Positions 30,351 to 63,438 of a DNA stretch of 64,000 nucleotides are shown here, piece by piece (position 1 is the first letter of the stretch; each line of letters opens with the position of its first letter). The notes below the pieces were generated by a model. The model saw nothing but the letters and a program-made list of their open reading frames with translations, did not search any database and was not told the origin of the DNA. The translations under genes were made by a program, and so were the position numbers. Origin of the DNA: Topomyia yanbarensis (Eukaryota > Arthropoda > Insecta > Diptera > Culicidae); the NCBI RefSeq assembly GCF_030247195.1, contig NC_080672.1, positions 395,515,037 through 395,579,036 on the forward strand. Direction: 5' to 3'.

Positions 30351-31006
30351 ATAACATGGATGAATCAAAAGAGAAAGCTGGAAGAAAAATAGAATTTGAT
30401 AATTCTCTATTCTTTATTTCTGTGACAGTAGTTTACTACACCAATATTAAATTACTGCGAGTATACACCAAGTGGGCGACAATATGTTTGCAAAATTGTT
30501 ACCATGGCCAAAATATATTTCTGCCACGGGCCAAAATGAAATTTGGGTGGCGGAAATAGAAAAAAAAGTATTTTATGAAAAATACAATTTTTATTGATTT
30601 CTTAGTAAATTATACGTTTATAAGGGATCTGTATTGATGGTCAGATGTAAGCCGATGTTGTGTATGAGTATATTTACCAACCTTTGCAGTCTTTATGTCT
30701 TATTCGCAAAATTTTAAAAACTATGTCCTAAAGTGGGCCAAAATACCTTTTTTACCCTACTATGCATCAAGATAATTTGAACAAATCTCGAGACACAGTC
30801 ATTTGAAGCAAAAAAATAAAAATTTCTCAGCACGTTTCTCGCTATATCTCACTAACCAAGCTGAATGTCAAAACTCTGAAAACTCCACTTTGTAGAGATT
30901 TTTTAGACAAGTGATGTGGCATATCCAACTCAGTTTATCCCAAAATGGCGTTTGTCATAAGATAGCACAACAGCGACGAAGTTGCTTATGCTTTGTTGTT
31001 TAAAGG

Positions 31007-32030
31007 GTGAACACGAAATTATTGCGACACATTCAACAGGGCATGACTTTTTTACCATTGGGTAAAAATCAACCAAATTTTGCACACTTTCTCATTGATA
31101 TGCATTGTTTACATGCTGTCAAACTCAAAGTCGTGTTTTTCGATTCAACGAAAATGGAGGTGAACCAACGCGAGTCGAGAGAACAAATTCTTTCCAAACA
31201 CCTGGAATTTCCTGACCTGTCGCATCGGCAGTTGGGAAAAATGTTGAACATTCACCATTCAACCGTCTCCAGAGTGTTGAAGCGGTTCCAGGAGCGGTTG
31301 ACGTTGGACCACGGCAAAGGAGCTGGAAGAAAACCGGGACCGGAGAACAAAAAGACGGAGGGAAAGGTGAAGCGAATGATTAAAGCAAATCCCAACGTCT
31401 CAAGCCGTTATTTGGCTAAAAAGATCGACATATCGCAGAGCTACGTTCAGAATGCAAAGAAGAGAGCTGGACTACATACATACAAGGTACATGACAAAAT
31501 ATGGCTGCTGTGTGATGGAAGATGAAACGTATATAAAAGCCGATTTTAAGCAAATTCCGGGGTTGGAGTTTTTCACCGGCAAGAGCAAGTTCTATGTGGA
31601 CGACAAATTTAAGAAGAAGAAAATGTCGAAGTTCGCCTCCAAATATCTCATTTGGCAGGTCATCTGCTCTTGCGGACTGAGGAGTGAGCCTTTCGTGACA
31701 AAGGGCACAGTAAATGGCGAGATCTACAAATCTGAGTGCCTCGAGAAGCGCCTTTTGTCGTTCTTGCAGCAGCACGACGAAGCTCCGCTATTTTGGCCAG
31801 AATCATGCCACTATTCTAAAAGTGTCCTGGAGTGGTATGAGGCCAATTCTGTCCATTTTGTTCCAAAGGACATGAATCCGCCAAACTGTCCGGAGCTGCG
31901 CCCGGTGGAGCAGTACTGGGCAATGATGAAGTGGGAACTTCGGAAGAGCAAGAAGACAGTCAAAGATGAGAAGGACATGTTAAGAAAAGGGAAAAACAAA
32001 CTGAGAACCTGGTACCAGATGACACTGTAA
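31007..32030 (+). pseudogene. Broken mariner transposase, D37E type
   Basis: The N-terminal half (31007 to about 31490) holds the helix-turn-helix DNA-binding part with LSHRQLGKMLNIHHSTVSRV and ISQSYVQNAKKRAG. A deletion and frameshift near 31490 remove the linker. The DDE part continues in another frame with VMEDETYIKADFKQIPG (first Asp). It then has FWPESCHYSKSVLEWYEA, where the second catalytic Asp (expected in a DLASCHYS-like block) is lost. NPPNCPELRPVEQYW carries the final Glu. The Glu spacing and the PPNCPELRP motif match ITmD37E elements described from mosquitoes (family knowledge). The transposase is inactive by frameshift and loss of the second Asp. Confidence 0.85.
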
Positions 32031-35223: not shown

Positions 35224-37923
35224 CTACGACCCCTCACTGTCACTTTCTTCGGTATGGGTACGCTTGTGGCGCGCAAGCTCGATAGCGGTATTGTACTCTG
35301 AGCCGCAGATGCTACACTCGTGCAAACGCTGCGCACAGTGCGAACGTTTGTGCCGTTTCAGTAGCGAGCTGCTGATGAACCCCCGGTTGCAAATATCACA
35401 ATGATTCGGTCGTTCACCAGTGTGTATGCGCCGGTGCTGCTTCAGCTGACCACCGGTGATAAACTCCTTGCCACAAATGTCACACTTGTGGGGTCGTTCT
35501 CCGGTGTGCACCCGCTTGTGTCTCGCCACTGCGAAGGTAGTGCTGAACGCTTTGTCACAAATGTCACACTTGTGCGGTCTCTCGCCGGTATGCGACAGGC
35601 TGTGCCGTAGAAGAAGACTTCGGATCGTGAAACCTTTGCCGCAAAGGTCACACTTGTGCGGTAGTTCATGTTTCCGAACATGCTGCCTGTAGAGGACTCC
35701 TTTCTCGAACTCTGTGTCGCAAATGTTGCATTTGAAAGGACCTTTCTCTTCCACCGGTCCGCGTTTCATCGGTTTAGTATGGCTGATCATGTGCCGATTA
35801 AGAAGACCTCTCGTAATATACTTCTTATTACACATTGTGCACTCGTGCGATCGCGGTGCGATGTGTCTTCGCTCGTGCCTGATAAGATTTCTTCTAAGGT
35901 CAAACTTTTTTCCGCAGACACTACATTCAAGCACACCCTGCTTCGTGTGACTAACCTTGTGAAGCTTTAGATGACTGTTGGTGATAAATCCTTTACCACA
36001 AACATCACACTTTATAGGCCTCTCGCCCGTGTGGATTGGTCTGTGGCGCGTCACTTCACTTTTGGTGATGAATCCTTTGCCACAGATGTCACATTTATGC
36101 GGTCTCTCGCCAGTATGAACTCGTCGATGTCTTTTGAGGGCACATTTCGTAGTGAATGTTTTTCCACAGACGTCACATCTGTGCGGCCGTTCGCCGCTAT
36201 GGGAACGTATATGTCGCAGAAGAACCGATCGCTTCAAAAATGTTTTGCCACAAGTTCCGCAATTTAACGGAAGATCGTTCACATGCTGGCGCATATGTCT
36301 TTGAAGAAGAAATTTTTTTGGGAATTCTTTGTCACAGGTTTCACATTTATGTGATCCCTCACCATCCTGAGATTTTGCAGGTTTGCCACAAAGATTTCGT
36401 CTGTGGTACTTCAACGAGTGCTGAGCCGTAAACCCGTTACCGCAGACCTCGCACTTGTACGGTCTATCGCCGGTGTGCATGCGGACGTGAACCTTTAGTT
36501 GACTCCCAGAGATGAATGCTTTGCTGCACATGTTACACTCATAGGGTCGTTCCCCGGTATGGATGCGCTTATGTTTAATGCGGGCACTAGACGTCGTGAA
36601 GGTTTTACCACAAATGTCGCAGCTGAATGGCCGCTCACCAGTGTGCATGAGTCTGTGCTTCTTTAGGGTGTTCTTCATATTAAACGCTTTGCCGCAGACC
36701 TCACATTTGTGCGGTCGTTCATTGCTGTGGCTAATCATGTGTCTTACTAAGGAAAATCTAGCAGCAAAGCTTTTGCCACACTCGCCACATTGGTGTGTAC
36801 GCTCAATGGCATGGGTACGCCTGTGTCTGATCAGGGCACTTTTGAGACTAAATCTCCTGCAGCAAATGTAACATTTCAGATCCATTTTTTCTTCTGAATG
36901 TACTCGGATATGCCGGTGTAGCTCATCGCTGTTCTTGAACTCTTTGCTGCAGACACTGCATGCAACTGTGTGGTCCACGTTTTCGCCAGCTCCATCATCG
37001 TTATCCAATTTAATCTTTGATTCGTTCAATTGAGATTCTGCAGTTTCTTCGGTGTTACACTTTTCCTCTATTTTCAGGAACTGATTAACATTCATTTCAA
37101 GCTGCTGGGAACACTCGCCTTTTTCATCTTTTTCTTCGTTTAAGTTGAGTTTTTTCTCGGAATCCTCGTTTTCCGTTGGTTGGCTTGGCTGTTCGACCTC
37201 AGACTGTTCTTCACCTGTCACCACCATGGTTTCTTTCTCCTGAGGACATTGTTCAGCTTCTAACTCTGGTTCATCGGAAAGATAGACCATGTCGCTGTTC
37301 TCCGTATTCTCATTGTCCACGCTACACTCCAAGTTTTGATTCTCACCCAAAACAAGCTGGTTTTCTCGATCAATCTGCTCGACTGGTGCTGTTGGATCAT
37401 TTGCATGCTTTCGGGATTCTTTGTCGTCAATTTTTATATTCCGTAGAATCTCCTCAGATTTAAGACATCGCATTCGAAAGCGGGCCGCGTTGGACAGATC
37501 ACCCAAACACGTACCGCAAATGTTCTTCGGGAAAAAATCTTCATCTTTTATCTAAAACGAAAAAAAAAGAATCGAGGGTCTCAAAAATTTTCAGCATGAG
37601 GTTTGATCCAGTACCAGGAGAAACTGGAAGAACTCCGAAGTAAACAGGAAAAAAGTTGTCTTGCGTTCGCTATTTATTGTTTCTCTTAGTCCGGTAGCGA
37701 ACCAGCGCAAAAAACTAGCAAGTTCGGTAGTGCTACTGATTACTCCGTATCCTGGAACAAATCTATAATAGTAATCTCCACCTACCGTGATTCCACTGCA
37801 GTCCTCCAGTAAGTCACGAATTTTGCTGTTGAACTCTTCCAAGGTTGAGAACACATCGAAAGAGTCGCTTTGCTCCTCCAGACAACACCGGCAGCAATCC
37901 GGTAGCGCTAGGCAACCAGACAT
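35224..37923 (-). CDS. ZAD C2H2 zinc-finger protein with 20 fingers
   Basis: Exon 1 (37786-37923) and exon 2 (35224-37551) join in phase 0 across a 234-base intron with GTAGGT donor and TTTTAG acceptor, giving 821 residues. The start is the ATG at 37923. The frame extends 5 codons upstream only through a TTG. The N terminus is a ZAD (about residues 10-90): CRCC in exon 1 and CGTC in exon 2 supply the four zinc-binding cysteines, with the intron between them. An acidic Glu/Gln-rich linker runs to about 240. Twenty C2H2 units fill about 244-815, many joined by TGERP linkers. The seventh is degenerate, ending in RRNLC. ZAD domains dimerise and the arrays bind DNA, so this is a nuclear sequence-specific regulator (family knowledge). 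The paralogue at 45834-46723 points the other way. Confidence 0.95.
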
Positions 37924-47587: not shown

Positions 47588-47682
47588 ACTTTTTTCGTTT
47601 TATGCGAAAGAACTGCGAAAACGTCAAACAACTTGAAAATGCTCCTCTCACGCACACAACTATACCAAGCAAAGAGTGCATA
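47588..47682. repeat. First part of a tandem unit split by the 5.8-kb element
   Basis: The block (TTCGTTTTATGCGAAAGAAC, later CTATACCAAGCAAAGAGTG, ending GCATA) recurs at about 53786-53872. Here its continuation lies on the far side of the inserted element, at 53486. It fixes the left boundary of that element. Confidence 0.85.
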
Positions 47683-48065
47683 CACGCTCATTCATAACAA
47701 CTCAAATTTGAGTGGCATGCCACTCTGTTTCATAAAAAATGCACGTAGTCAAAAAATGAGTTCTCGACTAACATATGATTAGGGCCGTAAAGCCAATGAT
47801 GTCAAACCGAGAAAAATGAGACTGAAGTTTAGCATATCTTTTTTTATTCATTAATTAAAGTGGTCTATTAGTCCTGATGAAAAAATGTCGCTCTTTGGTA
47901 GATAAAACATTAATCTTTCACGTCAAAATACGAAATAGAAGCAAAACATTACATATCACCACTTTTTTTTAAACAAAATGCAATTTACGTCCTTTTTGCG
48001 CACTGCCGGCATCCCTGGTGGATTATCAGCCGTTTGCTCCACGCCGTTAACATCAATGTATTTGT

Positions 48066-48150
48066 TTTGATTTGGTTTTCAAGTCCTTGCCTTGCGCCGT
48101 TCACTTCACTTTGTTTGTTTTGTTTTGGCTTTTGAGCCGCAAGCTAACGG
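48066..48150. repeat. Fragment of the CTCAAACGC-type palindromic MITE
   Basis: The phrases TTTCAAGTCCTT, GCGCCGTTCACTTCA and TTTTGTTTTGGCTTTTGAG match one arm of the complete copy at 49813-50076. It ends where the TM2D2-like sequence begins. Confidence 0.55.
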
Positions 48151-48189
48151 CACAAAAATAATAAAAAAATGTTTGTTCCTGCTTCTGAT

Positions 48190-48602
48190 TTCTAATCGTG
48201 GAAACGGCCAAATCACCAAGGACCGGTTGATCGCAAGAGAAAACCATACAGTAAAAGAGGAGCTTGACCACGGGTATGTGAAATTTGGCGGTGTCTATTA
48301 CGATGCCGTCAAGACCACCAGAGTTTAGTGCTCGACAATATCGAATGTGCCGAACCGCGGGTGATTATGCTGGAAGGTTTTCCCTGTGGCAAGTACACAA
48401 ACCAATACTTCATGACGACACTGTTGTACAAATTTCTGGGCATGGATCGATTCTGTCTCGGTCAGACCGGTACGGCCGTCGAAAAGTTGTTCGCATTGGG
48501 AGGCGTCGGAATCTGGTGGATTGTCGATATCGTGCTGCTAATTATTAACAATCTGTTGCCCGAGGGTGGAAGCAACTGGAACACAGAGCGGAGGGAGAGG
48601 TA
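48190..48602 (+). pseudogene. TM2 domain-containing protein 2 (TM2D2-like) fragment
   Basis: The reading shows [19 protein letters not shown], then an in-frame TAG where Gln is expected, and a frameshift. It continues with [20 protein letters not shown]. After that come the TM2 region [40 protein letters not shown] and GGSNWN. A few residues of the first membrane helix are deleted between TLLY and KFLGMDRFC. The family (Drosophila CG11103 type) has a secreted N-terminal part and two membrane helices joined by a DRF motif, linked to Notch signalling. The stop, frameshift and deletion make this copy non-functional. The N terminus is missing or unrecognisable. Confidence 0.85.
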
Positions 48603-48920
48603 AGTGGCTTACAGGTTTATCTTTGACGGAATGGGTGTTGATTGGTTCAATTTCATTTTTGTTATAGTGCGACAATTGAATGAAGGGAACAGACTGATCG
48701 ACTATGGGAATGGAGGATATGCTTCCACAATACCACTCTCGCTACTTAATCTTGAGTTTGGAACAGAATGGTTTTGTCAGTGGCAGTATCGTAAAATATT
48801 CTGCGCTACAATATTTCGGAGCGGAATAATTTTTATAAAATATCCATGTAGTGGATCAGCCGGTTTTGCCAGATTACTGCGTGAGATAGCGAAGGTAAAT
48901 AAAAAAAATTGTGCTAGGTT

Positions 48921-49527
48921 CTGGACTTCGACAGGACAACGATGACGTGGTACTGTTCTGCAAAAGTGATGCATTACGAAAAATGGCTCCCAACACGTTC
49001 TGGGCAGATTGTAAATAGAAGAGGTACGTGCCGAATCGTGGTAAACTTGTTATCGGAGTCGCATCCCAAAAAGCTGGAGATATCTTCCAAGTCGGCATAA
49101 GTGCCAGTGAACCGGCCTCTTTATCAGACATGGCTTTCGAGGGTGCCACCAAGAAGAGCCGTCCGGATGGTTACGTAGGAGATGCCATATGTGCGCGACT
49201 GATAATAGCCAATCAGGATTTGGAACCGGAACTGATTTGTGTTGATTTCCACGGGAAGAAAGGCAAACTTCACGAGGAATACATTTTTGGTTGCAGCATC
49301 AATTTGGTACGGAAAATCCTTAATCCAAGTGTACATTTCTAGACCTGCTTGCGAAGGAAATAGCATTCGAAATAGCCGCTGGCGAAACAGTAAAGGAAAT
49401 TATTGCGGTGGGAATGCGATTTTACCCGTGGAAATCTAACGAAGAGTTGAAGGAGTTTTGTGATGAAATAGTGTATGAATTTTATGAGTATATTTTCTCG
49501 TTAACCGATTCTCTAGTTTGTAATTAA
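48921..49527 (+). pseudogene. Exosome subunit RRP40 (EXOSC3-like) fragment
   Basis: The translated pieces are GSGLRQDNDD, then a TAG stop (in place of Gln) just before KRYVPNRGKLVIGVASQKAG. DIFQVGISASEPASLSDMAF, EGATKKSRPDGYVGDAICAR and ANQDLEPELICVD follow. These are the S1 RNA-binding domain of the RNA exosome cap subunit. A frameshift near 49335 and a deletion of the MNGR-type segment precede a KH-like tail, with AKEIAFEIAAG, TVKEIIAVG and NEELKEFCDEIV. RRP40 is part of the nuclear and cytoplasmic 3'-5' exosome. The N-terminal domain is absent. This copy cannot encode the full protein. Confidence 0.85.
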
Positions 49528-49812
49528 TTTTTTAATGTAAAACTTTCCATAACATTTCCCCTTGTTCTGACAAAAGGTTCATTCATCAGACTCACGTTCG
49601 GTTAATAAATTATAAATTACAATTGGATTACTTTTTAATAGCACGAAAAATCAGAAAGGATACCGTTACTGACCATTTTGAGATGCGTCTAAAATCTAGT
49701 ACTAAATGTTTTTAATCGAAAGTAGAACAGTTTTATCGTCAAATTGTAACTAAATTCAGCTATTTCAAACAACTTTGTCACTGGGATCTACTAATAAGTG
49801 GTTTGAACTAAA

Positions 49813-50076
49813 GGGCTCAAACGCGCTTACGTTGTATTTGAAAGTCAGTCAAGGACTCAAGTTAAGGGCTCAAAAGCCAAAACAAAACAAACATGTGAAG
49901 TAAACGGCGCAAAGCAAAGGACTTGAAAACCAAATCAAAACAAAATTTTTGATTTGGCTTTCAAGTCCTTTGTTTTGCGCCGTTTACTTCAACAGGTGTG
50001 TTTTGTTTTGGTTTTGAAGCCGTTAATTTGAGTCCTTGAATGACTTTGAAATATAACGTAAGCACGTTTAAGCCTT
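49813..50076. repeat. Palindromic MITE, complete copy (CTCAAACGC type)
   Basis: GGGCTCAAACGCGCTTACGT at the left end is mirrored by ACGTAAGCACGTTTAAGCC at the right end. The middle (CAAAGGACTTGAAA, then TTTCAAGTCCTTTG) is also palindromic. It lies between the RRP40 and acyl-CoA synthetase pieces. Related fragments occur at 48066-48150 and 52079-52245. Confidence 0.75.
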
Positions 50077-50271
50077 TTATATAATACTGTTGTAATATAC
50101 TAATTATATAATACTGTTGTATTTTATGTAAAATAATAGACGTTGCATTTTTATGTTTATTGTCAGCATATACACAAACAATCATATGAGAGGATCACAC
50201 TCGCTAAAATAAAAACAAAATAAAGGGTTACATTAATTTCTTCTTTATGAAATTCCATATCCATATCGAAG

Positions 50272-50595
50272 TTAATGGGAGCATCGAAGTCTGATAAATG
50301 GTTCGAAATACTCCGAAAGTGCTTGCTCAGTCAATCCTTCAACCGTTACATTCTCTTTGGTTTCTGAGTCGCTATCAGTATCATTTTCCTTAATGTACCC
50401 CGGATTTGAATGATATTCTGGACGATGATCTGAATCTTTGAAGGATTCAACGATCGAAACGGTCATGCTTTGTCCCTGGTGCTCCATTGCTTTCGTATGG
50501 TCAAATGCGGTTTTACTGCCTGATTCACTGTTCTGTGGTGGTAACACGTACAAACCAGGTCCCATATCATTTTGTACTTTGCTTGTGCAGAACAC
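50272..50595 (-). pseudogene. Unrecognised acidic ORF, possible captured exon
   Basis: The minus strand has an open frame of about 107 codons, with DTDSDSETKENVTVEGLTEQ and ending EYFEPFIRLRCSH. The first codon shown is a GTG, so it has no proper start and looks more like an exon than a whole gene. Its composition is gene-like rather than AT-random. I do not recognise the protein. Confidence 0.3.
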
Positions 50596-50699
50596 TGTGC
50601 CGGCAAAATAAACCGAGCGTTTGAAGCTTTTCCCGGATATTCGACAGATTCGGGAAGAATTTCGTGATGAGTGGACCGAAGAGATGATATGGTTAAGCC

Positions 50700-51181
50700 A
50701 ACGATATTCTAGCCAAGGTAATTGATACGGAGACCGGAAAAGCCTTGGGACCGAACCAGCACGGAGAGCTTTGCTTTAAATCATGAAGGACTATATCGGG
50801 AACGATAAATCAACTCAAGAAACGATTGACAAGGACGGCTGGCTGCACACCAGCGATATTGGATCTGGAGTTCTATGTTGTAGATCGTTTGAAGGAACTG
50901 ATTAAGTACAAAGCTTTCCAGGTACCACCCGCCGAAATAGAAGCAATTTTGTTGACTAATCCGAAGGTGAAAGATGCAGCTGTGATTGGTCTGCCAAACG
51001 AAGAAGCTGGTGAGCTTCCGCTCGCTTTTGTCGTTAAACAGGATGATGTTTCAGTCAGTGAAGAAGAATTAAAAAAATACGTTGCGGATAGAACCTCACC
51101 GGCTAAGAGACTGCATGGAGGTGTTCGATTCATAGCAGAAATTCCGAAAAATTTGGGTGGTAAAATTCTAAGGAGACCTTA
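50700..51181 (+). pseudogene. Acyl-CoA synthetase / luciferase-like enzyme, C-terminal fragment
   Basis: The first frame gives AKVIDTETGKALGPNQHGEL and CFK. A short deletion follows, then [16 protein letters not shown] and [11 protein letters not shown] frameshift leads to [40 protein letters not shown], and ends with IPKNLGGKILRRP. These are core motifs of the ANL (AMP-forming adenylation) family, including the hinge [10 protein letters not shown] and the C-terminal GKILRR with the catalytic Lys. The N-terminal ATP-binding half is missing. AATAAA at 51270 may serve as its old poly(A) signal. It is broken by at least two frame changes, so it is non-functional. Confidence 0.88.
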
Positions 51182-51329
51182 GGGCGCTGCTTCAGAAACC
51201 TAAATCTAAACTGTAAATAATTGCCAATTTGTTATGGGATTCCGGAACTGGTATCTTTTTAATGATGTCAATAAATGTAGGTGTTTTAGAACGGTTAATT
51301 GTACTAGAACCTTTATTAGAACAAGTCAT

Positions 51330-52019
51330 CTATTCTGTTTTGTTCATCGCTTGTTTCATACTGTCCGGCAACTTGGCTAGTATGTCTTTGTGAGCAATGC
51401 CACTGGCAGATCCTAGTACGCCACAAGCATTCGGAAATCGTACATCCTTCCCGTAGCGATAATGCCTTCCCAGAATGTCTGTCAACGTTCCACCTTGAGC
51501 CTCGAGTACTGCCTCCGGAGCGCAGGTATCCCACTTTTTGCAACCAGCACTCGCGAAAACATGTGCATGAGCATTTCCTTCCAGGAGCTGTAACACTTTA
51601 TACCCAGCTCCACCGACTTTAAGAATACCGTCCGGCGATAAAGCATCTAAAGCAGCTTGAACTACTGCAGTGGAATGGGATCTAGTTGTGGTCACTATGA
51701 ACCGATCGGTTGGAGGGCGTTTGGGTGTAAATCTACCGGTACCAATTCCTTGTACTCCCCAAATTGTCCGACCCAGCTCACCCGTATCGGCGTTAAAATA
51801 GGGCTGATGAATTACACCTCCCACGGCTCGATCATTGACCGCTATGCCAATGAGCACCGTAACTCCTTCCAGAAAACCCTGCGTATACTCGCCCGTTCCG
51901 TCCAGTGGATCCACCCAAATAACCAGATCAGTTTCCTTCACCTGGTTCAATGCTTCCGGGCAAGAGTTACGTTCCAGAAATTCTGTGTTGACGTCTGGAA
52001 TAATCCAATCGTCCGGAAC
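51330..52019 (-). pseudogene. BPNT1-like last exon (5' truncated), frame intact
   Basis: The minus strand reads from an acceptor (ATTTTAG, just above 52019) through 229 codons to TAG. It starts VPDDWIIPDVNTEFLERNS. WVDPLDGTGEYTQGFLEGVT contains the metal-binding D-P-L-D-G-T motif, and the CKKWDTCAPEAVLEAQGG block is near the C terminus. This is 3'(2'),5'-bisphosphate nucleotidase, which hydrolyses PAP to AMP in sulfate metabolism (family knowledge). The 56-base upstream intron keeps its donor (GTAGGT at 52070-52075). The exon before it has been cut to a few bases by a palindromic MITE, and no earlier exon appears in the window. The first catalytic Glu motif is lost. No frameshift is present, so the capture may be recent. 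Confidence 0.75.
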
Positions 52020-52078
52020 CTAAAATTTTTATGAAATAAGGACATGAAACGAGTCTAAATTTAACCACAACCTACCTT

Positions 52079-52245
52079 TAAAGCAAAGGACTTGAAAGCC
52101 AAATCAAAACAATTTTTTTTATTTGGCTTTCAAGTCCTTTGCTTTGCGCCGTTTACTTCACATGTTTGCTTTGTTTTGGTTTTGAAGCCGTTAATTTGAG
52201 TCCTTGAATGACTTTGAAATATAACGTAAGCACGTTTAAGCCATT
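52079..52245. repeat. Palindromic MITE, truncated copy, abutting BPNT1
   Basis: This copy contains CAAAGGACTTGAAAGCC, the central mirror GGCTTTCAAGTCCTTTG and the right arm to ACGTAAGCACGTTTAAGCC. It lacks the outer left arm of the complete copy at 49813-50076. It begins within a few bases of the BPNT1 splice donor. Confidence 0.7.
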
Positions 52246-52803
52246 CAATATATATAACAAAGTTTTACTTGGTTTTACTGTTTTTTTGTTAGAAATGTTG
52301 CACAGATTATTTATAAAGATAATAGTGATGCAAGAAGTCCATTATTGTTTGAAGAATCAGACAATAACAATTATTTACAAAAATAGGAAAAAAAGAACTA
52401 GCACAGATTTCACCTAGGATTTCACATATTTTACATTTGATAGGATAATTCTTTTGTTGGAAATCGACATAAATAAAGTCTACACAATAATAAAATCCTC
52501 CTAATATAACTCACAAGATTATATAAGAACAAAAATTAAAGGTCCGGAATGCCAATTCAAGCACTTAATGCAGCTAAGCCGTAAACTGAAACAAAGGGCG
52601 TGAAAACCACTCGCTTAATATGGATTGTGCGCCGTTTACCGTAAATTATAATAACATAATTTTGATGAATTTTTTCGATTATAGACTCACAATAGCTTAA
52701 AGAATGAAGAATAAGGATGCTATTAATGCAATAAAACGAAAAAGATGAATTTGGCTTTAAGGCCCTAATCATATGTTAGTCGAGCAGTTTGTCTAATTCA
52801 CTC

Positions 52804-52932
52804 ACGGCCAATTTCTTCACATGAATGAAAACCGGTTTTCGTTGAAAACCGGTTTTCGACTAATTGGTCACCAGCAACCTGAAAACTGGTTTTAAGCGAA
52901 AACCAGTTTTCATCCAGTGAAGAAATTGGCCG
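52804..52932. repeat. Short MITE with GAAAACCGGTTTTC hairpins
   Basis: CGGCCAATTTCTTCAC and its exact inverse form the ends. Inside are repeated GAAAACCGGTTTTC and CGAAAACCAGTTTTCATC palindromes. Flanking TCA on both sides may be the target duplication. It lies inside the 5.8-kb element. Confidence 0.7.
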
Positions 52933-53069
52933 TCAGTGTTGAGTTTGGGATGCAAATGTCAAATTTGAGTACGTTTTACTCAAAAAGAAAATGAGAAAAA
53001 TAATCATTCAGTATTTTTAATTTTATTATAAATAATGTCAACAGTACTAAAACTATCATTTACCTGTAC

Positions 53070-53282
53070 CTCCAAGCGCTAGCGATGTCTGGAAATATAA
53101 TCCGACGACGCTTTTGGACATCTCTTTAAGGGCCAATCGGCACTTCGTAGTATTGGCAGAAACTATAAAAACAAGATAGAAAGTTAGATTTGAATAGAAC
53201 TAATACTCAGAGAAACCTACCTTTTAATTTTCTGAATGTTCCGCGTTGACTTTACAGCTAATAGGTCCGAGGCATAATCTTT
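53070..53282 (-). pseudogene. Two exon-like pieces of an unrecognised gene
   Basis: The minus strand has ATG-led IKDYASDLLAVKSTRN coding sequence ending at an AAAG/GTAGGT donor. A 60-base intron-like gap follows, ending TTTTTATAG. A second block ends at an ACAG/GTAAAT donor. The splice-site spacing is gene-like, but the two blocks do not join in an open frame, so the piece is probably broken. I do not recognise the protein. It lies inside the gene-capturing element. Confidence 0.3.
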
Positions 53283-53485
53283 TATCATGGTTTCAATCGA
53301 CGTCAAATTCTACGCACTTTTTATTGAGAATAACTATTTTTTTCACCCGAAAGTTTAAAAAATTAATGGTTACTCATCAGTCGAGTTAATTCTACTCAAA
53401 TTAAAACCCATTTTTTGACATATTGCCTATATTTTTGAAATTGAGTGCTCTGTACTCAAATTTTGAGTAATTTTGAATGAGCGTG

Positions 53486-54108
53486 TATAGAATAAAAGGT
53501 GGGCAGTTTTCAGAGATGATCCAAATTTTGGGTAATCACCATGTTCAAATTGTTACCCAATTTCACACCATAAAATGGGTAATTTTGATTTTTAGTGCAC
53601 ATCTTTCTATAATAAATTAGGCAATCCATGAAATTTCTGATTATTTCTTCTGACAATACTCCAAGGGCGCGACGCCCACCAAAATGGTTGATTCGATTAA
53701 ACATTAAACGAATCGGGTAGTTTACAGTTCGGAAAACATGTAACGAGATTTGGGCACAGACTAACAGACATAACACAAACTTTTTTCGTTTTATGCGAAA
53801 GAACTGCGAAAACGTCAAACAACTTTAAAGTGCTCCTCTCACGCACACAACTATACCAAGCAAAGAGTGCATATAGATTAAAAGGTGGGCAGTTTTCCAG
53901 AGATGATCCAAATTTTGGGTAATCGCCATGTTCAAATTGTTACCCAATTTTACACCATAAAATGGATAATTTTGATTTTTAGTGCACATCTTTCTATAAT
54001 AAATTAGGCAATCCATGAAATTTCTGATTATTTCTTCTGACAATACTCCAAGGACACGACGCCCACCAAAATGGTTGATTCGATTCAACATTAAACGATT
54101 CGGACTAA
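53486..54108. repeat. Tandem duplication of a ~390-bp unit
   Basis: The unit from AGAATAAAAGGTGGGCAGTT to the TTCGTTTTATGCG block, at 53486-53872, is followed by a second copy starting TAGATTAAAAGGTGGGCAG (53873-54108). The copies differ at few positions over about 230 bases. Open frames repeated in both (53510-53818 and 53825-54184) are by-products. The first unit contains a stub of the GGCTAGTTTACAG MITE at 53725. Confidence 0.85.
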
Positions 54109-59261: not shown

Positions 59262-59490
59262 TATTAGCAGTGTAGCCCATACAACCGGCCACCCCTCGTA
59301 TTTAACCATGCACTAATACAATCATGTTAAATTATCATTCCGACCTTGTTTATTGTACCCCTTACATTAAATAAAGACGCACTTGTTGTTTAAAGTTCCA
59401 CCTGATAGTTTGTGTTTCCGTTAGCGGTTTGAGAGTCCTCGGGATTCCTTTGTACACAGTGTCGTGTGTTCTTCCTCGTGCTGCTTTTCA
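59262..59490 (+). repeat. 5' LTR of copia element
   Basis: It starts TATTAGCAGTGTAGCCCATA and ends CTGCTTTTCA. It contains a poly(A)-type AATAAA near 59370. The 3' LTR differs at about seven positions plus an 8-base insertion. The first dinucleotide is TA where TG is usual. Confidence 0.85.
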
Positions 59491-59493
59491 GGT

Positions 59494-62400
59494 TATGAGC
59501 CCAAGCATGGACGAGAAAACGAAAATCGCTGTTTTCAATGGAAATGGTTTCCATAATTGGAAATTCCGTATGGAGACGATGCTTGATATACACGATCTTC
59601 TCGATTGTCTCCAGCGTGAAGTAGAAGAAATTCCTGAATGCCGGTTGTTGCCGGAAGATGAGGTGGCAGAGCGAGCCGAAAAACAAAGAAATTTGGACGA
59701 ACGGAAAGTACGGGAGAAAAAGTGCAAATTTTTGATTGTGCAAGCGATCGATGATAGCCAATTGGAAGCAATCAAGGATTGCCAAACACCCAAGCGGATC
59801 TGGGACACACTGAAAAATGTTTTTGAACGTCGTGGTGTCGCCGGTCAATTGTATCTCCGGAAACAACTCCTCACATTGAAATATGTGGAGGGAGTTTGTA
59901 AACTCTGAACATTTGCTACGATTTGATAAGCTAATACGCGAGTTGAAAGGTAGTGGTGCTACGGTCGAGGAATCAGACGCAGTTTGCCACTTATTATTAA
60001 TGCTCCCAGCGTCGTTTGATTCTGTGGTGACGGCAATCGAAACACTACCAGATGATGTTACAATGGATTTCGTAAAGAAACGTCTGATGGACGTCGACTT
60101 GAAGCGGCGTAGTGCAGAAGTGTCAGAAGAGGTTAGTGGTGGGGAGAATGTGGCAATGATGATTAAAGGCGCACGGTATAAGTGGAAGTGCTTTCAGTGC
60201 GGAAAAATCGGACACAAGAAAGCCGAGTGTCGCGAAAATACAAAGGGAAAGGCGAACCCCCAAAACAAGCCGAAAGCCAAAAATGATACGAGCTGTCAGA
60301 AAGCGAACGTCGGGACTGAAGACGATAATAATCCTGAAATTACTTTCATGGTGGATGAAGCAAATATAGAGCGCGTAGGTTGGTACCTGTATTCGGGGGC
60401 TACGGATCATATGCTATGTGATTCGAGTTATTTTTCTACAATGCGACAGCTAAAGCGACCGATTGAGATTATTGTTGCAAACGGGCAAAAGGTTTTGGCG
60501 GAGCACTGCGGCAATGTAGTGATGTATTCGGTCGTCGGTGAAACTGTTAAAAAGTGTGAAGCTAAGGATGTGCTTTATCTACCGGGATTAAGTTGTAATC
60601 TATTTTCCGTGAAACGAATTGCTAAATCGGGACTCAAAGTGTGCTTTGATGGTGATAAAGCAGAGATCTTAAACGGTTGTGTCGTGGTTGCCGTTGGCCG
60701 ATTTCAAGGCAAACTGTACGAGTTGGATATTTTCTGTAAGCGTAATAAAATGGGTGCGGCCATGGTTTCCGGAAAAGTACCGCGCAATGCTGTATTGTGG
60801 CACCAGAGACTCGGACAAATCGGTTGTGACAGTTTACGCGAACTTGTAAAACACGAAATGGTTAATGGTTTATCTTTAAAAGATTTTGATACGGAAACTG
60901 TAGTGTGTGAATCGTGTTTGGCCGGAAAGATTGTTAAGTTACCATTCGCTTCAGTTGATGAGAGGCGCTCGTTGCGGCCAACTAATACACAGCGATGTGT
61001 GTGGACCGATAACACCGCGAACATGGGACGGTAAGAGGTTTTTGGTTTCATTTATTGATGACCTCACATTTCACGGTAATCTACTTACTAGCTTCCAAAG
61101 CCGAAGTTATTGATCGGTTTCGGGAATATGAGGCGCTGGTGACAGCTAATTTCGGTACCAGAATTGCAAGACTCCGTACGGAAAATGGCGGTGAATACGT
61201 TAACGATGAAATGCGCACATTTTGCCGTAGGAATGGGATTGCCATGGATCTGACAGTGCCGTGCACGCCGCAGCAAAACGGTGTTTCAGAGCGAATGAAC
61301 CGTACTCTAATGGAACGAGCTCGAGCGCTGTTAGCGGGGAGTGGCTTCGGAAAGGAGATGTGGGGTGAAGCCGTAGATACCGCTACATATTTAACAAATC
61401 GTTGTCCTACATCATCCGTTCAACAACGTAAAACTTCCTATGAGATGTGGAACAACCGCAAACCGGATGTTAAAAAGCTGAAGGTATTCGGAAGTACCGC
61501 GTATTTACATGTTCCCAAGGAGCTGCGTTCCAAGTTGGATCCGAAGTGCCGGAAGTTGTTCTTTGTAGGATACACAGTGAACGGTTTTCGACTGTGGGAT
61601 AACGAAAAGAAGAAGATTGGGGTAGGAAGAGACGTTGTGTTCGATGAGTCGTTATTCAAAAAGAAACCAGAAGAAGAAAAACAGGTGCCGAAGATTGTCG
61701 AGCTTGTTTGCGATGCGAAGAACAGCTATCCAAGTGTGGTGGTTCTCGAAGAGCAGACTGAAGATGTTTCAAGCGAAGAAGAGCAGAATGAAGAGGAGCA
61801 GCAACTGGAAGTGCGAAGAAGCAGTCGACCTAAATGACCGCTCGTTTGGTTTGATTGTTACGAACTAGGAGAAACTGCGATGTGTGCTGAAAGCTTCGTT
61901 GATGATCTTCCGAGCACTGTTGATGGTCTGAAGGAACGTGTCGATTGGCCTAAGTGGCAAGTGGCCATTGCAGACGAGATGGACTCACTAAACAAGAACG
62001 AAACCTGGATTCTAACATCGTTACCACCCGGTAAAAATTTGATTGATAGTAAATGGATTTTTAAAATTAAACGAAACGATATTGATGATACAGACAGATT
62101 CAATGCTAGGTTCGTTGTCAGAGGTTTCTCCCAGCGAAAAGGGTTCGATTATGATAGCACATACACTCCAGTGGCTAAACTAATAACCTTACGAGTGTTA
62201 TTGGCAATTGCGAACCAAGAAGGAATGCATCTCCATCAACTTGATGTCAAGACCGCTTTTCTTAATGGCTCACTGGAACAAGAAATTTATATGCGCTTAC
62301 CGAAGGAGTTCGCCGCCGGGAATCAGGTTGCGAAATTGCAAAAATCCATTTATGGACTAAAACAACCGTCACGCGCCTGGAATTCTAGATTTCATGCCTT

Positions 62401-63438
62401 TATTGTTAATCTGGGATTTAGACAAAGTGAAGTTGACAACTGTCTGTACACAGCGAAGATTTCCGAACAGCAAGTTTACCTAATTATCTATGTCGATGAC
62501 ATATTGATCGCTTGCCATTCTTTGGATGTCATTAAGAAGCTGAAGAATGAACTGCAACAAGAGTTCGATATGACAGATTTGAATGCAGTTAGTACCTTCT
62601 TAGGACTGACGATTGAACGGCGTGAGGTTGAAGGAGTGCTTGCTTTCAGTCAGAAGTATTTGCAAAGTCTTCTGGATCGTTTAGGAATGGCCGACTGTAA
62701 GCCCAAGCAAACACCTTTGGCAGCAGGAATTGAATTAGAAAAGTATAACGACCCATCGAAATTTACTACAAAACCGTATCGTGAATAGATTGGGTGTTTG
62801 ACCTACGTTACTGTAACTTCGAGACCAGATTTATGCGCAGCGGTAATTTTTTTAGTGCTTTTCAAAGCTGTGCAAGTGATGAAAATTGGAACCACGCCAA
62901 ACGTATTTTGCGGTATATCCAAGGCACGTTGGATCTAAAGTTAATCTATAGACGAATTGAAAACAGCAAATTGATTGAAGGGTATGCGGATTGAGATTGG
63001 GCTGGTGATATATCTAACCGTAAATCTACATCAGGGTATATCTTTCAACTTCATCAGGCTACAGTATCATGGGCAACGCAAAAGCAGAAATCAGTGGCAC
63101 TATCATCGGCCGAGGCAGAGTATGTTTCATTGAGTACAGCGGTGAAGGAGGCAATCTGGTTAAGGATGCTACTAAAAGATTTCAACAAAGATGTCAGCGA
63201 ATCTACTGTAATCCGTGAAGAAAATCAAGCATGCATTAGCATTGCGAAGGAGGACAAACCAACGAAGCGACTAAAGCACGTCGACGTACGTTTTCATTTT
63301 ATTCGTGATGAGATTCAGAGAGGAACCGTTCGCTTGGAATATGTCGCTTCTGAACACCAAAAGGCCGATATCATGACCAAGGGTCTTCCGAAGGTTCAGT
63401 TCGAGAATTTACGAAGCCTACTCGGGATGTCGGCTTGA
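59494..63438 (+). pseudogene. copia gag-pol polyprotein, inactivated
   Basis: Gag starts MSPSMDEKTKIAVFNGNGFH and shifts frame near 59895. Its zinc knuckle is CFQCGKIGHKKAEC. The protease motif reads YSGATDH where D-S-G-A is expected, so the catalytic Asp is lost. The pre-integrase part has LWHQRLGQIG and CESCLAGK. A deletion and frameshift near 61020 precede the integrase, which has RTENGGEY where Asp is usual, and the QQNGVSERMNRT block with the Glu. After a stop at 61837 the reverse transcriptase (61880-62788) carries VKTAFLNGSLEQEIYM and YVDDILIA. RNase H (up to 63438) has SSAEAEYVSLSTAVKEA, interrupted by stops near 62788 and 62995. Several breaks make the copy dead. Confidence 0.88.

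Follow-up and report, generated by a model that had tools for sequence, protein, structure and literature searches.

Textbooks treat gene capture by cut-and-paste transposons as a process of plants. Plant Pack-MULE and Pack-CACTA elements, i.e., non-autonomous transposons of plant superfamilies with terminal inverted repeats (TIRs) that hold pieces of several genes, are described as capturing host DNA by tandem insertion and re-mobilization (PMC8903248, PMC13317346; statements on these and the other papers cited refer to the excerpts drawn on here). For animals, one large survey reports 370 Pack-TIRs, of which four are multicopy in reference genomes, and in addition Ssk-FB4 of flies (Tan et al., 2021, PMC8277862); these cases are mainly of the hAT and TcMariner groups, the examples carrying one captured sequence. 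Template switching has been proposed for these elements and for a fold-back transposable element, the latter as a fork-stalling site. Turmoil-1 of C. elegans is a Harbinger element with 3-bp target duplications and two host coding pieces in its 760-bp ends (PMC2572040). Here we analyze a 64,000-bp stretch of the 1.168-Gb assembly of the sabethine mosquito Topomyia yanbarensis (C3:395515037-395579036, hereafter the window; C1 to C3 denote sequences of this assembly), in which a 5,022-bp TIR DNA transposon of the Pack type, non-autonomous and loaded with host gene pieces, very probably lies inserted in a common miniature inverted-repeat transposable element (MITE) of ~645 bp.

As a non-autonomous TIR element with pieces of several genes, the carrier resembles the plant Pack-TYPE elements (PMC8903248, PMC13317346). 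With animal Pack-TIRs including Drosophila Ssk-FB4 it shares host DNA in a TIR transposon, multicopy occurrence with common joints and different duplications, and microhomology or filler at joints; unlike the Pack-TIRs in the excerpts of PMC8277862 (a paper whose main text does not contain the word "Sola"), it combines four genes from three loci in one element, an apparently serial loading, and cargo in transposase-bearing relatives. Like Turmoil-1, which is transposase-bearing, it is an animal DNA transposon with host coding pieces, whereas here the cargo lies in the interior and the target duplication has 4 bp (PMC2572040). No description of the family was found in the open-access literature searched, outside which most subscription papers lie.

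Nested borders of the element and its host MITE

A sequence-only reading of the window had proposed a gene-capturing Pack-type element at 47683-53485, bounded by inverted ends and TA duplications and devoid of transposase. Its core, a TIR element that captured pieces of four genes, is upheld, and the ends and duplications do exist; they belong, however, to the MITE and not to the carrier, and transposase remnants are present (see below). A genome search with the left end of the outer unit yielded 41 matches (best 40 of 449 first-look candidates). Besides the window, all 40 stop at query base 80-83; among 29 other loci cut out around left-end matches, a right-end match is found in 25 (the exceptions being L002, L021, L024 and L025) and the total length is 614-672 bp in 20. 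Eight MITE copies without gene cargo were aligned, and the window differs from them by two large inserts, 47763-52785 and 52805-52932. Because the left-end matches stop where they do and the eight copies lack the insert, we identify the outer unit as an abundant, cargo-free MITE and the insert nested in it as the gene carrier. An empty target also survives as a tandem copy from 53779 onward, in which the insert is missing and the alignment continues across the joint.

The inverted ends of the outer unit (80 bp, 76%), its TA duplication and the empty tandem site would suit another reading, in which 47683-53485 is the capturing element itself, i.e., a TA-duplicating Pack element of the Tc1/mariner type with 80-bp ends. 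The abrupt stop of the other 40 matches, the eight copies without insert and the gene-bearing copies elsewhere, which have only the inner ends and unrelated flanks, make this extremely improbable, and the eight-copy alignment rules out the outer TIRs as ends of the carrier. By its TA duplication the outer unit is a putative Tc1/mariner-type MITE.

In the TIRs of the nested carrier the longest uninterrupted match spans 24 bp, whereas 200 Markov resamplings reached no more than 12. The ends of the element family read CTCGACTAACATATGATTAGGGCC and its target duplications are 4 bp long, perfect 4-bp repeats being seen in 8 of the 9 family copies with both flanks read, as is characteristic of a Pack-TIR.

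Two side observations concern the surroundings of the carrier. The tandem duplication of ~387 bp comprises 47588-47682 plus 53488-53778 as the MITE-bearing unit, and 53779 onward as the empty unit. Within the outer MITE, 53059-53310 resembles an exon, shows splice-like signals on the - strand and occurs in 8/8 aligned copies; a Pfam search with 53059-53199 gave no match, and the MITE may itself hold a captured gene piece there. The one or two exon-like pieces to which the earlier reading gave no identity correspond to this MITE interior (~53059-53310) and to the transposase remnant (open reading frame 50272-50775, - strand).

Captured genes, source loci and spread

Between the TIRs lie pieces of TM2D2, RRP40 and an ANL acyl-CoA synthetase on the + strand and of BPNT1 on the - strand (Table 1). 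This gene content, already recognized from the sequence alone, was confirmed by Pfam (TM2, E=3.4e-11; RRP40_S1, E=5.1e-26; AMP-binding_C, E=2.2e-17; Inositol_P, E=1.5e-33) and by sequence matches in the PDB, the best of which are RRP40, BPNT1 and the insect acyl-CoA synthetase CG6178 for three of the four pieces (TM2D2 by Pfam only). The four genes, in agreement with the earlier estimate of at least four, trace to three source loci, the synthetase and BPNT1 being convergent neighbours at C1:4.14M. These two were captured as one ~1.37-kb block together with intergenic DNA and the complete BPNT1 intron, the retention of which rules out retro-capture from mRNA for this block; its parent is a 95% match at C1:4.142M, with no element match of at least 60 bases within ~1.5 kb on each side. 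Around the RRP40 parent (C2:86.853M), ~1.5 kb on each side contain neither a TM2D2 match nor an element match. The TM2D2 parent, placed by match coordinates, holds a 213-codon open frame with a TM2 domain. RRP40 seems to be set within TM2D2-derived DNA, because the 124 bp behind it match the 3' flank of the TM2D2 gene; position 49808 is the query end, so this match implies no true breakpoint, and none is claimed at exactly 49808/49809 beside the palindrome. As in a Pack-TIR, host gene DNA is thus enclosed by TIRs and the parents lie elsewhere, those read (RRP40 and synthetase-BPNT1) not being flanked by the element.

A genome search with 50080-52079 of the window gave 43 matches (30/30 candidates scored), and the synthetase-BPNT1 block is present in seven element copies (window included) plus the parent. 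Four copies of type I carry all four genes (the window, C3:51.34M, C2:429.99M and C2:459.12M); three copies of type II (C2:213.72M, C2:214.54M and C2:371.90M) lack 48170-50249 and are, therefore, without TM2D2 and RRP40. The expectation of other copies sharing the ends is borne out for the inner ends, common to six further copies, and not for the outer ends originally drawn. Copies of both types start and end at the TIRs, the flanks compared are unlike each other, and the duplications of the six non-window copies are perfect and all different (ATAT, ACAT, AATT, ATTT, AAGT and AAAT). Over ungapped columns the seven copies are 98.7-99.9% identical to one another and 96.8-97.3% to the parent, against which they agree in 43 of 1,375 columns (12 of these gaps). 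These 43 common differences and six different perfect duplications show that the block goes back to a single capture and then spread by transposition. Type II copies also have a ~106 bp insert in the synthetase piece (~1396-1500 of L037, same place in L035 and L036), absent from the window and the parent.

A segmental duplication of four contiguous parents, the circumstance named in advance as fatal to gene capture, is ruled out by the three parent loci, of which only synthetase and BPNT1 are adjacent. In a wider form, a segmental duplication or assembly artefact merely including transposon pieces, this alternative draws on five ~3-kb relatives with common flanks that spread in a larger unit and on tandem arrays of relatives; with three parent loci, and with type I and II copies bounded by TIRs, differing in flanks and in 4-bp duplications, we consider it highly improbable.

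Table 1. Features of the gene carrier and its host MITE (positions in the window)
Feature	Position	Strand	Remarks
Gene-carrying TIR transposon, 5,022 bp	47763..52784	+	Copies elsewhere end at these bases
Left TIR, 34 bp	47763..47796	+	97% complementary to 52751-52784
Right TIR, 34 bp	52751..52784	-	97% complementary to left TIR
Left AGTT target duplication	47759..47762	.	MITE copies read ATGAGTTTGTC at this place
Right AGTT target duplication	52786..52789	.	One extra C (52785) between duplication and element
Half of internal palindromic unit	48034..48139	.	
TM2D2 fragment	48222..48846	+	80% to C1:33974505-33975153 (-)
RRP40 fragment, frame broken	48838..49469	+	83% to open 248-codon frame at C2:86853166
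TM2D2-parent flank DNA	49685..49808	+	124 bp, 87% to DNA 377 bp downstream of TM2D2 parent
Complete internal palindrome, 271 bp	49809..50079	.	
Transposase gene remains	50163..50698	-	3' end (~50163-50284) joined to part of first long exon (50283-50698)
Acyl-CoA synthetase 3' coding part	50709..51190	+	Frame broken by small deletions
BPNT1 last exon	51330..52019	-	229 codons open plus stop
BPNT1 intron, retained	52020..52075	-	GT...AG
Second palindrome, remaining part	52080..52254	.	BPNT1 block joins near its hairpin tip
Outer ~645-bp MITE, host of carrier	47683..53485	.	Left arm 47683-47762, rest 52785-53485; genome copies, 8-copy alignment, empty site
Outer MITE TA duplication	47681-47682 and 53486-53487		
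Small palindromic MITE inside outer MITE	52805..52932	.	128 bp, CGGCCAATTTCTTCAC ends, TCA duplication

Relatives, transposase and probable mode of capture

The carrier holds no whole transposase, as had been noted, yet it retains remains of the transposase gene of its family, and the same TIRs are found on relatives with long frames. One relative (C1:80277331-80283875; 6,545 bp, AACT duplication) keeps three open stretches on the same strand, of 333, 130 and 526 codons; another (C3:412.06M, TAGT duplication) has a long transposase frame and ~3.4 kb of further DNA (L064) without a match to the window element. The protein of these relatives is predicted to adopt a DDE (RNase H-like) fold with D-D-E in its core, as in a DDE/D transposase. 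Both relatives also carry the TM2D2-RRP40 stretch, for which a genome search gave at least 62 matches (best 40 of 82 candidates). The left 268 bp of the element gave at least 44 matches (best 40 of 65 candidates), 26 of which cover at least 255 bases. Among 25 of these places, a TM2 match lies within 1.5 kb in 19 and within 10 kb in 21, the four others being the three type II copies and C2:33.82M; the 26th place, C2:226.29M (77%), does have a TM2 match and stays outside this count. Of the 32 TM2 matches, six were likewise set aside: two weak places, and four genes that are not part of elements, among them the TM2D2 parent. RRP40 pieces of 12 element loci (from a set of 13, with L072 dropped as partial; L080-L085 outside the comparison) are 89.4-90.9% identical to the parent and form two clades, 85.9-87.3% identical to each other.

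Pack-MULE target duplications are about 9 bp, as opposed to 4 bp here. For FB4, duplications of 9-10 bp are given (PMC8277862). Sola2 elements with Fanzor1 (PMC3627910) resemble this family in their 4-bp AT-rich duplications and short TIRs, and also in being chimeric, with a common 5' part and foreign 3' parts; they differ in being amoebozoan and in their AWWT duplications. Our family has A-N-N-T duplications in 8 of 9 copies, and AWWT fits ATAT, AATT, ATTT and AAAT but not ACAT, AAGT, AGTT, AACT and TAGT. The superfamily is, provisionally, Sola-like, an assignment that neither PF25273 nor the duplication pattern settles.

Further observations concern the same family. Four copies ~6.13 kb apart form a tandem array at C2:216471134-216490142 (L040-L043), in which no TM2D2 or RRP40 match was found. 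A related short family with CTCGACAAACATATGATTACGGCC ends (L008, L010, L014, L017 and C1:80282810-80283043, the last inside the 6.5-kb relative) probably represents MITEs of the same superfamily. A predicted Topomyia product, P0273 (230 aa, 8 members), matches 17% of the transposase stretch at 95% and may be a gene annotated across a copy of the family.

As to the capture itself, host DNA would have been taken up serially, by template switching when breaks or stalled forks in the element were repaired, and the DDE transposase of the relatives would move the product in trans. TM2D2 with its 3' flank and RRP40 would have entered first, before the subfamilies parted; this order of events is suggested because both transposase-frame relatives also carry TM2D2-RRP40 pieces. 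Later, the 5' part of the transposase gene would have given way to the synthetase-BPNT1 block: compared with the 6.5-kb relative, the block stands in place of that part, up to the middle of an internal hairpin-forming palindrome. A 3-bp overlap marks the BPNT1 joint and ~10 bp of filler the synthetase joint; short overlaps occur at the deletion in the transposase gene and at that of type II (no chance level computed). These joints, together with a parent that has no element match of at least 60 bases within ~1.5 kb on each side, suit template switching in repair, which has also been proposed for animal Pack-TIRs (PMC8277862). Capture by element fusion, in which host DNA between two adjacent elements is carried along by their outer ends, has been reported for plants (PMC8903248, PMC13317346), and the three palindromic units inside the element would be in line with it. 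It is, in our estimate, unlikely here, as the ~1.5 kb on each side of the parent contain no element match of that length, the block lies between internal parts of one element (a transposase exon and mid-palindrome), and its joints show overlap and filler. A bolder version of template switching, in which the fold-back palindromes serve as standing loading ports (hairpins stall forks or break, repair switches to host templates, loading is repeated, cargo passes through subfamilies including transposase-bearing ones, and translation of the BPNT1 frame yields a chimeric protein that begins in the palindrome), is offered as a doubtful possibility.

Several points weigh against the reading of the locus as a transposed, serially loaded carrier. 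The window's own AGTT duplication has one extra base (C), and the order of TM2D2 before RRP40 is deduced from match coordinates. RRP40 is possibly mRNA-derived, its parent being one open frame. Foldseek of the relatives' transposase against the PDB gave no match at E<=0.001, and its match to PF25273 / DUF7869 is below the cut-off of that family and does not settle the superfamily. In the five ~3-kb TM2D2/RRP40 relatives the common flanks extend over at least 40 bp, and in four over the whole 150 bp compared, so that these relatives have spread otherwise; their common flanks rule out independent jumps, and they were counted as one insertion. Finally, transposition is deduced from sequence, and transcription of the copies is putative.

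The BPNT1 frame and the significance of the family

The 690-nt BPNT1 frame is open in 7/7 copies. Between copies, nonsynonymous divergence (dN) is 0-0.012 and synonymous divergence (dS) 0-0.024; relative to the parent these are 0.018-0.021 and 0.062-0.069, respectively (dN/dS ~0.3, the parent branch itself being constrained), and dN/dS does not show constraint on the copies. In P0001, a predicted Topomyia protein with six member sequences and a length of 268 residues, 39 residues precede the BPNT1 exon; the last of these, FDLAFKSFALK, can be read from the palindrome in the window in frame with BPNT1, which makes this a predicted chimeric gene. A functional chimeric gene kept by selection, its frame being the reason for the spread of the copies, would agree with the universally open frame, the splice signals and the palindrome-derived N-terminal part of P0001; given a dN about equal to dS between copies, few changes and the youth of the copies, we regard it as improbable.

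Elsewhere in the window, inspection of the open reading frame list by eye points to copia-like polyprotein frames (59375-63438), a mariner-like transposase with a frame break (31004-32030) and a C2H2 zinc-finger gene (35224-37551).

Overall, the family is a real case of gene capture by a transposon in an animal, with multiple copies and multiple gene sources; superfamily, movement in trans and mechanism are provisional. The earlier remark that multi-gene examples in animals are rare is fair, while elements of this kind are already published (PMC8277862); the kind is known and the degree is unusual. Parent genes, different stages of loading and relatives that keep transposase frames are all present in one animal genome, so that breakpoints, order of capture and subsequent spread are open to direct reading, making template switching vs. 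element fusion testable in an insect.

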